A stretch of DNA of 64,000 bases, from positions 1-64,000 of the forward strand of contig NZ_JAIXPP010000087.1 in assembly GCF_027486195.1 (NCBI RefSeq). Reading direction: 5' to 3'. The DNA comes from Novosphingobium sp. GTDB taxonomy: Bacteria; Pseudomonadota; Alphaproteobacteria; Sphingomonadales; Sphingomonadaceae. Positions 49,395 through 63,410 of the stretch are shown here, piece after piece. Each line of letters begins with the position of its first letter. Position 1 is the first letter of the stretch. The translations under genes were made by a program, and so were the position numbers. The notes under the pieces are model-generated. The model had not been told where the DNA came from and made no database searches. It saw only the letters and a program-made list of their open reading frames with translations.

Positions 49395-50159
49395 TCAGGA
49401 GAGCATCGCCATGCCGCCATTCACGTGCAACGTCTGCCCGGTCATGTAGCCAGCATCGCGGCTGGCGAGAAAGGCGACCGCCGCGCCGATATCGCTGCCC
49501 TCGCCCATGCGGCCCATCGGGATGCGCGCGTTGAGCGCGTCCTTCTGTGCATCGGGGAGCACATCGGTCATCGCGGTGCGGATGAAACCGGGGGCGACGC
49601 AGTTCACGGTGATGCCGCGCGTGGCGAGCTCCTGCGCAAGGCTCTTCGACATGCCGACGAGGCCGGCCTTGGCCGCGGCATAGTTGACCTGCCCCGGATT
49701 GCCAGTGGCACCGACCACGCTGGTGATGGTGATGATGCGCCCGAAGCGGGCCTTCATCATCGGCTTGGAGGCCGCGCGCATCAGGCGGAAGGCGGCTTCG
49801 AGATTGACGCGGATCACGGCGTCCCATTCCTCGTCCTTCATCCGCATGGCGAGGTTATCGCGCGTGATGCCGGCGTTGTTGACGAGGATATCGACCTTGC
49901 CGAGCGTATCGATCGCGGCAGGCACCAGATGCTCGACCTGCTCGGTGTTCGAGAGATCGCAGGTGATCTCGACGTGGTCGTGACCGTAGGTGTCGTTCAG
50001 TTCCTCGCGGAACGAACGCAGCTTGGACGGGTTGGTGCCCGAAAGCGCAAGGCGTGCGCCCTGCTTTGCGAGGGCATGGCTGATCGCCGAGCCGATGCCG
50101 CCGGCAGCGCCGGTGACGAGGGCGGTCATGCCGGTGAGATCGAAGAGGCGGTGTTCCAT
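49395..50159 (-). CDS. fabG: 3-oxoacyl-[ACP] reductase
   Basis: LTGMTALVTGAAGGIGSAISHALAKQGARL; LVNNAGITRDNLAMRMKDEEWDAVIRVNLEAAF; YAAAKAGLVGMSKSLAQELATRGITVNCVAPGFI. Confidence 0.95.
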   Translation of the reverse strand: MEHRLFDLTGMTALVTGAAGGIGSAISHALAKQGARLALSGTNPSKLRSFREELNDTYGHDHVEITCDLSNTEQVEHLVPAAIDTLGKVDILVNNAGITRDNLAMRMKDEEWDAVIRVNLEAAFRLMRAASKPMMKARFGRIITITSVVGATGNPGQVNYAAAKAGLVGMSKSLAQELATRGITVNCVAPGFIRTAMTDVLPDAQKDALNARIPMGRMGEGSDIGAAVAFLASRDAGYMTGQTLHVNGGMAMLS

Positions 50160-50180
50160 GGGTTGCTCCTGAATGGTTTT

Positions 50181-50658
50181 GTTTCTCGCAGAGATGCAGA
50201 GAAGAAGGAAGATCGCGGAGAGCTCACGCGGGCGTGTAGTTGTTTACGAGCCGACGAATCCCTTCTTTCATTGTCGCGCCAGAAAAATTCAGAAGCAGCC
50301 CGACGGGCTGCTTCATCAGTCTCAGATAAGTGATCAATTGCCTCTCATGCGCCTTGGTCAGTTGCTCGACCGCCTTGATCTCCAAAACAAGGCACCCTTC
50401 GATCAGCATGTCGATCCTGAATGCCGCATCGAAGCGTTGACCGTCAAACTCGACAGGCAAGGTCATTTGGCGGTCAACACGCAAACCCCTCGCCTCGAGC
50501 CGACCCGCCAGGATGCTTTCGTAGACGGACTCGAACAATCCCGGGCCTAGCTCTCGATGGATACGAATTGCCTCATCGACAACCGTTGCGCTGATCTGAT
50601 CAACCCGCATTCCTTGCTTCTCTGCGACCTTCTTTCCCTTAGCGTCTCTGCGAGAAAC
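50181..50658 (-). mobile_element. putative GxxExxY cassette bounded by inverted repeats
   Basis: Left end GTTTCTCGCAGAGATGCAGAGAAG...; right end ...AGCGTCTCTGCGAGAAAC (50641-50658); the same termini recur at 63241-63410. Confidence 0.6.
50224..50610 (-). CDS. GxxExxY protein (PD-(D/E)XK nuclease-like, PDDEXK_3)
   Basis: HRELGPGLFESVYESIL (G-LF-E-SV-Y) and RIDMLIEGCLVLEIKAVEQL (D...ExK). Confidence 0.9.
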   Translation of the reverse strand: MRVDQISATVVDEAIRIHRELGPGLFESVYESILAGRLEARGLRVDRQMTLPVEFDGQRFDAAFRIDMLIEGCLVLEIKAVEQLTKAHERQLITYLRLMKQPVGLLLNFSGATMKEGIRRLVNNYTPA

Positions 50659-50661
50659 AGC

Positions 50662-51603
50662 CTAGATTTCCTTCGCGAAGGCTTCGATATCGGCCATGCC
50701 GATGAGGCTGGCAACTGCGACATCGCTTACGGTGCGAGTGATCATCGGGCCGACGACCTTGCCGCCAAGCTCGACGAAGTGCTCCACGCCCGCCGCGCCC
50801 AGTGCGACCATGCTCTCGCGCCAGCGGACGCGGCCGGTGACCTGTTCGACGAGGAGACGGCGGACTTCGGCGGGGTCGGTCACGGCGGCGGCGGTGACAT
50901 TGGCCATGAGGGTGACGCGCAGAGGGCCTGGCGGGGTCTGCGCCAGCGCCTCTGCCATGGCATCGGCGGCGGGCTGCATCAGCGGGCAGTGGAAGGGCGC
51001 GGAAACGGGGAGAAGCATGCCGCGCTTGATGCCGTGCTCCTTGACCATGCCGATGGCGCGCTCGATCGCAGCAGTGTGGCCCGAAAGCACGACCTGGCCG
51101 GGCGCGTTGTCATTGGCGACGGTGCAGACCTCACCTTGCGCGGCGGCTTCAGCCAGCGTGGCGGCCTGATCGATCTCGGCGCCAAGCAGCGCGCACATCG
51201 CACCCTCGCCCACCGGCACGGCGGCCTGCATCGCGGACCCGCGCAGGCGCAGCAGGCGGGCGGTATCGGCGAGGCTGAAGGCTCCGGCGGCGCAGAGCGC
51301 GGTGTACTCGCCGAGGCTGTGGCCGGCGACGAACTGGGCCTTGTCAGCCAGGACGAGGCCGCATTCCTTTTCCAGCACGCGCAGCACGGCGATGGCATTG
51401 GCCATGATCGCAGGCTGGGCATTGGCGGTGAGGGTCAGTTCGTCTTCCGGTCCCTCGGTCATCAGCGCAAAAAGCTTCTGGCCGAGCGCGTCGTCGACTT
51501 CCTCGAAAACTTCACGCGCGGCGGCGCTGGCGGCGGCGAGGTCTGCGCCCATGCCCAGCTTCTGGCTGCCCTGCCCCGGAAAAACGAATGCCCGCATCAA
51601 CAC
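50662..51603 (-). CDS. fabD: ACP S-malonyltransferase
   Basis: AFVFPGQGSQKLGMGADLA; AGHSLGEYTALCAAGAFSL. Confidence 0.96.
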   Translation of the reverse strand: MLMRAFVFPGQGSQKLGMGADLAAASAAAREVFEEVDDALGQKLFALMTEGPEDELTLTANAQPAIMANAIAVLRVLEKECGLVLADKAQFVAGHSLGEYTALCAAGAFSLADTARLLRLRGSAMQAAVPVGEGAMCALLGAEIDQAATLAEAAAQGEVCTVANDNAPGQVVLSGHTAAIERAIGMVKEHGIKRGMLLPVSAPFHCPLMQPAADAMAEALAQTPPGPLRVTLMANVTAAAVTDPAEVRRLLVEQVTGRVRWRESMVALGAAGVEHFVELGGKVVGPMITRTVSDVAVASLIGMADIEAFAKEI

Positions 51604-63240: not shown

Positions 63241-63410
63241 GTTTCTCGCAGAGACGCCAAGCGAAAGAAGAGCGCAGAGAGCTGATCGGGGCGGCGAAGC
63301 TGCTCCAAATCGACTGTACGGCGGCAGGTGCAAGCATCGAAAAAACAGGAGCCTTTGGCTTAGCGCATCATCTTTGTGCGCTCTGTTTCCTCGGCGTCTC
63401 TGCGAGAAAC
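63241..63410. repeat. 170 bp MITE-like element sharing termini with the GxxExxY cassette
   Basis: 18 bp perfect inverted repeat GTTTCTCGCAGAGACGCC (63241-63258) / GGCGTCTCTGCGAGAAAC (63393-63410); no credible internal ORF. Confidence 0.65.

Follow-up and report, generated by a model that had tools for sequence, protein, structure and literature searches.

A nuclease-like GxxExxY gene bounded by inverted repeats suggests that a palindrome-spreading DNA element has been overlooked

Introduction

In the 64,000-nucleotide stretch of Novosphingobium sp. DNA analysed here (hereafter the window), a short gene enclosed by terminal inverted repeats lies between the host genes fabD and fabG. Its product belongs to the GxxExxY family (TIGR04256; PDDEXK_3, PF13366), which had neither an assigned function nor an associated element before. 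The locus raises the question of what joins a nuclease-like gene to a pair of repeats inside a host operon. A first-pass annotation had proposed that the two form one mobile or selfish unit, in which the protein recognises or mobilises the repeat. Here, we ask how far this proposal holds for the unit itself, for GxxExxY genes of other bacteria, and for related repeats elsewhere in the genomes that carry them.

The GxxExxY unit between fabD and fabG

The features of the locus are as follows.

50181..50658, minus strand: whole unit, the inverted-repeat-bounded GxxExxY cassette between fabD and fabG (478 bp)
50181..50225, plus strand: left arm of the cassette, starting GTTTCTCGCAGAGATGCAGAGAAGAAGGAAGATCGCGGAGAGC, downstream of the minus-strand gene
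50224..50610, minus strand: GxxExxY gene, PD-(D/E)XK family PDDEXK_3, 128 aa
50611..50658, minus strand: right arm of the cassette, starting on the minus strand with GTTTCTCGCAGAGACGCTAAGGGAAAGAAGGTCGCAGAGAAGC and reaching the start codon of the gene
50662..51603, minus strand: fabD, host gene, upstream in the operon
49395..50159, minus strand: fabG, host gene, downstream in the operon

The terminal arms (50180-50197 and 50642-50659) are 94% complementary over 18 nt, with looser similarity over about 45 bp. Elsewhere in the 64 kb, 1,686 pairs with the same spacing scored at most 12, below the arm score of 16. The cassette gene is co-oriented with fabD and fabG; the fabD stop codon lies 3 bp to the right of the cassette, as had been annotated, and the fabG start lies 21 bp to its left, not the 22 bp originally given. 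This PF13366 gene is the sole gene of the 478-bp unit, in agreement with the earlier statement that the cassette carries no transposase, and it is the single GxxExxY gene in the 4.73 Mb assembly. Together, the profile matches described below, the arm alignment and the 1,686-pair control confirm that a GxxExxY gene occupies an inverted-repeat unit at the fabD-fabG junction.

The GxxExxY protein resembles a minimal Cas4/RecB-type nuclease

The 128-aa protein matched PF13366 (E=3e-38) and TIGR04256 (E=5e-38) with scores of 130-131 bits, against curated cut-offs of 35 and 22, making it a clear member of the family. In our alignments, the residues of the GxxExxY motif (G24, E27 and Y30) are invariant, as are the catalytic-type residues E27, D67, E77, K79 and Q91; Y95 is invariant in a set of 15 sequences and nearly invariant in a set of 34. 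The structure predicted for the protein (pLDDT 94.5) had Cas4 (SSO0001) as its top fold match in the PDB (E=2.4e-3, prob 1.0), with modest TM-scores. Other matches, all with modest scores, were a tRNA-splicing endonuclease, MGME1 and AdnAB, with lambda exonuclease further down. A sequence search of solved structures with the protein gave no match, and Cas4 profiles matched it weakly (E about 1e-3). In one paper, a cas4 call made by another pipeline coincides with a GxxExxY domain at the same place (PMC8934634).

The features that define the Cas4/RecB/lambda-exonuclease group of PD-(D/E)XK enzymes are thus present: the core fold, the D...ExK active site together with the motif glutamate, and the QxxxY motif. 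The protein differs from these enzymes in being a minimal, 125-aa stand-alone domain, and the annotated loci that we looked at contain no CRISPR or recombination partner. Based on the structural model and the conserved residues, the protein is best explained as a putative minimal Cas4/RecB-type PD-(D/E)XK nuclease. A role as a defence system was rejected, as PADLOC gave just weak Cas4-like and RT-associated PDDEXK matches. One paper on a Chrysochromulina virus genome lists a GxxExxY protein together with genes for replication and repair (PMC12085832). In the open-access literature, we found no paper that links the GxxExxY family to repeats; an earlier description in a subscription journal is possible.

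Arms bound GxxExxY genes in more than ten phyla

Strong inverted repeats lie directly around the gene in 48 of 71 loci of the host's bacterial family, and several of the family loci without them are genes whose reading frame runs through the arm. An arm translated as a C-terminal tail (e.g. SASSRLRVNQ) was seen at L036, L039, L046, L047, L054, L061, L076, L077, L082 and L084. Outside this family, we used 75 loci from Verrucomicrobiota, Chloroflexota, Acidobacteriota, Planctomycetota, Bacteroidota, Cyanobacteria, Desulfobacterota, Gemmatimonadota and others, including one archaeal MAG. Flanking inverted repeats scored at least 16 in 52 of these loci, from more than 10 phyla, against a cross-locus null of about 6-7%, so the question whether GxxExxY genes are systematically flanked by arms can be answered in the affirmative. 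At a score of at least 12, the count was 67 of 75 loci, compared with 2 of 143 shifted windows on the same loci.

The arms are made up of 8-bp words of the form CRCNRAGR, with three words in 96 of 136 arms and a dominant spacing of 8 bp. The exact words vary between loci, and the two arms within one locus match each other. Different flanking words were found at a Fusobacteria locus (L153), where the gene lies between direct repeats of GATTTAATCCGTGTACCTAT, and at a Treponema locus (L155), where it is flanked by an 11-nt inverted ACACGGATTCG; these two are possibly a second arm class. Two further loci have unusual layouts: L096 (in G068) contains two different armed GxxExxY genes about 2.5 kb apart and also has fabD and fabG, and L156, in a Gemmatirosa plasmid record, has complete short palindromes of matching words on either side of the gene.

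The matching of the two arms raises the possibility that they are selected at gene ends as RNA-level structures, either bidirectional terminators or mRNA-stabilising hairpins, and that GxxExxY came to lie inside them by chance or for its expression. The arms are able to pair as a long stem, and the window has a short copy between convergent genes:

63241..63410, no strand assigned: gene-less short palindrome, with ends as in the cassette, between two convergent genes

However, G.U-type mismatches were not in excess over A.C-type mismatches in the 136 arm pairs (161 vs 141, p=0.27), which indicates that arm matching is apparently kept at the DNA level and not as an RNA hairpin. There was also no match to an Rfam family, and these two results led us to reject selection for an RNA hairpin. 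An RNA-level role, which would in addition leave unexplained why GxxExxY of all genes is arm-bounded in more than 10 phyla, appears improbable.

Gene-less palindromes share the ends of the cassette and accompany the gene

The 4.73 Mb assembly contains the terminal 16-mer of the cassette as an exact match 24 times, mostly in inverted pairs. Besides the cassette, the fetched regions of the assembly contain 23 gene-less inverted pairs of 94-286 bp, whose ends are those of the cassette and whose middles vary; one of them is the palindrome of the window at 63241-63410. Two of the short-copy sites are empty in the closest relative (G320), with spacers of 19 and 22 nt. In several genomes, the loop of one palindrome contains a second one, and the two often differ in word type (L301 and L302 in G328; L303, L304, L319 and L320 in G309; L305 in G118; L317 in G000); nesting affects about 4 of 16 pairs in G309, as counted by eye.

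In a small test of 7 genomes, the short copies were similar to the arms of the gene in the same genome (p=0.022). The two genes of G328 differ in arm type, and short palindromes of either type occur there; the second gene was noticed via the arm spacing and then confirmed by HMM search. In G309, the commonest short palindromes are unlike the arms of its single gene.

Across 301 genomes of the bacterial family, the median word count was 15 with the gene and 1 without it (MWU p=5.5e-23; odds ratio about 20). Within genera having both states, the gene-bearing mean was higher in 29 of 29, and after removal of the gene's own arms an excess persisted in 21-22 of 28-29 (p about 0.01). Among gene-bearing records from other phyla, 10 of 12 have words and 2 of 12 have none, and most gene-bearing genomes tested from other phyla show a word excess. 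Four genomes have the gene and hardly any words (G210, G225, G263 and G271).

Five genomes have many words and no detected gene (G157, G074, G071, G211 and G201). Such genomes would fit a scheme in which the palindromes are spread by another enzyme (RAYT/TnpA_REP or that of an insertion sequence), with GxxExxY a passenger trapped between two of them, and REPs served by a RAYT are a known precedent (PMC3116915, PMC8049555). Yet the Y1 transposase profile PF01797 was not found in five of the six palindrome-rich genomes tested (G000, G257, G309, G068 and G106) and gave one weak match in the sixth (G328), and on this ground we rejected RAYT as the driver. Moreover, the same word type would not be expected to bound a passenger in many phyla. 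We consider it very unlikely that the gene is such a passenger.

Units have moved, and the fab-site copies are faithful to their site

Among genomes of the genus, the closest relative, G320, and about ten others have an empty fabD-fabG junction (2-4 bp), which answers the question of empty junctions in relatives positively. The junction is filled (about 480-534 bp) in nine genomes, and two have a 60-68 bp remnant there that lacks the gene. With the repeat-gene association described above, neither of the outcomes that the first-pass annotation had named as contrary to a mobile cassette, a repeat with no association to the gene or an ancestral arrangement without empty sites, was what we observed. 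In G110, where two sister gene units occupy unrelated sites, the alignment of the two spans exactly the stretch from one arm to the other and ends there, and the arms are more alike than the genes. As the match of these sister copies is confined to the arm-to-arm block, and as palindromes are nested in one another, we conclude that the units move. To the right of filled units, the fabG ribosome-binding site (GGAGC) is repeated, as duplication would give, and selection for a ribosome-binding site also explains this. No clear target-site duplication could be made out at any copy, as the filled and empty sites are too diverged.

The fab-site copies form a near-single lineage, with 5 label changes compared with 25.8 after shuffling. 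Their tree correlates with that of FabD/FabG (Mantel r=0.36, 0 of 2000), and yet their discordance ratio with the host genes is 0.51, about twice that of same-length host fragments among themselves (0.18-0.28; random, 1.0). From these lineage and tree comparisons, the unit is site-faithful, in part vertically inherited and in part exchanged. The cassette is not freely hopping, and is less mobile than a usual transposon. GxxExxY matches were absent from 50,697 phage records and were found in 8 of 72,556 plasmid records and at 2 viral-contig loci, so we discarded the idea that the gene is phage or plasmid cargo.

A site-faithful lineage at one conserved site, empty in close relatives and partly discordant with the host genes, is also what a homing endonuclease element would show. 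A homing-like nuclease would cut an empty junction such as fabD-fabG, and repair from the filled chromosome would copy the cassette, with the arms being structural or regulatory and the dispersed palindromes a side product. This accounts for the near-single lineage with its raised discordance and for the empty junctions, but leaves unexplained the 23 gene-less palindromes with the same ends, the genome-wide co-occurrence of gene and words, and the G110 sister unit at an unrelated site. Homing elements also differ from the unit in their boundaries, in lacking dispersed gene-less copies and in their nuclease subgroup: the fold found here is nearest to Cas4/RecB and to no known homing endonuclease, the homing-endonuclease domain 3r3p being 32nd among the fold matches (E=0.43). 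Given these differences, we regard homing as an unlikely account of the unit.

A proposed two-part palindrome system

Among known systems, REPIN-RAYT is the closest in organisation. There, a low-copy or single chromosomal gene is flanked by a repeat that is dispersed as inverted doublets with variable middles, and the repeats are more numerous in gene-bearing genomes and hardly ever on plasmids (PMC3116915, PMC8049555). The GxxExxY system is alike in all of these respects: its gene is repeat-flanked, the repeat occurs elsewhere as inverted doublets, there are more repeats where the gene is present, and it is hardly ever on plasmids. In contrast, the enzyme here is a PD-(D/E)XK nuclease, whereas RAYT is an HUH Y1 tyrosine transposase (PF01797); the arms are iterated 8-bp words, whereas REPINs are GTAG-type imperfect palindromes; and the GxxExxY system spans more than 10 phyla and includes a gene-bearing unit that has itself moved (G110). 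Because the defining HUH enzyme is absent (the unit has PF13366 only, and G000 has no PF01797), the GxxExxY system is not a member of REPIN-RAYT; by analogy, it is best read as a putative convergent counterpart. MITEs and their parent DDE transposons offer a second parallel, since there, too, a longer copy with the gene is accompanied by short non-autonomous ones that end in the same terminal inverted repeats, but here the gene-bearing copy has PF13366 only and no DDE transposase.

We therefore propose that the cassette is probably the gene-bearing copy of a two-part palindrome system, similar to REPIN-RAYT and built on an unrelated PD-(D/E)XK enzyme. Direct observation underlies several parts of this proposal, namely the bounding of the gene by arms across phyla, the matching of the arms, the co-occurrence of dispersed palindromes, the empty sites, the moved arm-to-arm unit and the nesting. 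That the protein acts on the arms, through recognition of the words, catalysis and copying, is what we infer from its association with them, its intact active site and its Cas4-like fold. Of the original proposal of one mobile or selfish unit, mobility has thus been borne out by the cross-phylum arms, the empty, filled and remnant junctions and the arm-to-arm block, and recognition or mobilisation of the repeat by the protein remains the inferred part.

In the mechanism that we envisage, the 8-bp words iterated in the arms (CRCNRAGR, as a rule three to an arm) are most likely recognised as DNA by the GxxExxY protein. The protein would process word palindromes, leading to their excision or to copying into new intergenic places. 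The gene-less short palindromes (about 65-290 bp) would be non-autonomous copies served in trans, and the gene-bearing copy would move rarely, persisting at favoured operon junctions such as fabD-fabG, where it may often be lost and be exchanged between species at the same junction.

A bolder version of this proposal, which we put forward tentatively and do not favour at present, is that a stand-alone Cas4-like PD-(D/E)XK nuclease suffices as the mobility enzyme of these phylum-spanning elements, reading 8-bp words and spreading gene-less palindromes in a manner distinct from transposition of the HUH, DDE, serine or tyrosine kinds. Because the armed gene and many gene-less repeat copies recur in more than 10 phyla, the data suggest that palindromes are spread through genomes by a kind of DNA element that has been overlooked. 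If the two-part system is real, a protein family found across bacterial phyla, for which neither a function nor a substrate was available, would acquire both, with the arm words as a directly testable DNA substrate. It would also account for the CRCNRAG palindromes that many genomes contain, and would mean that palindrome maintenance of the REPIN-RAYT kind arose at least two times, with unrelated enzymes.
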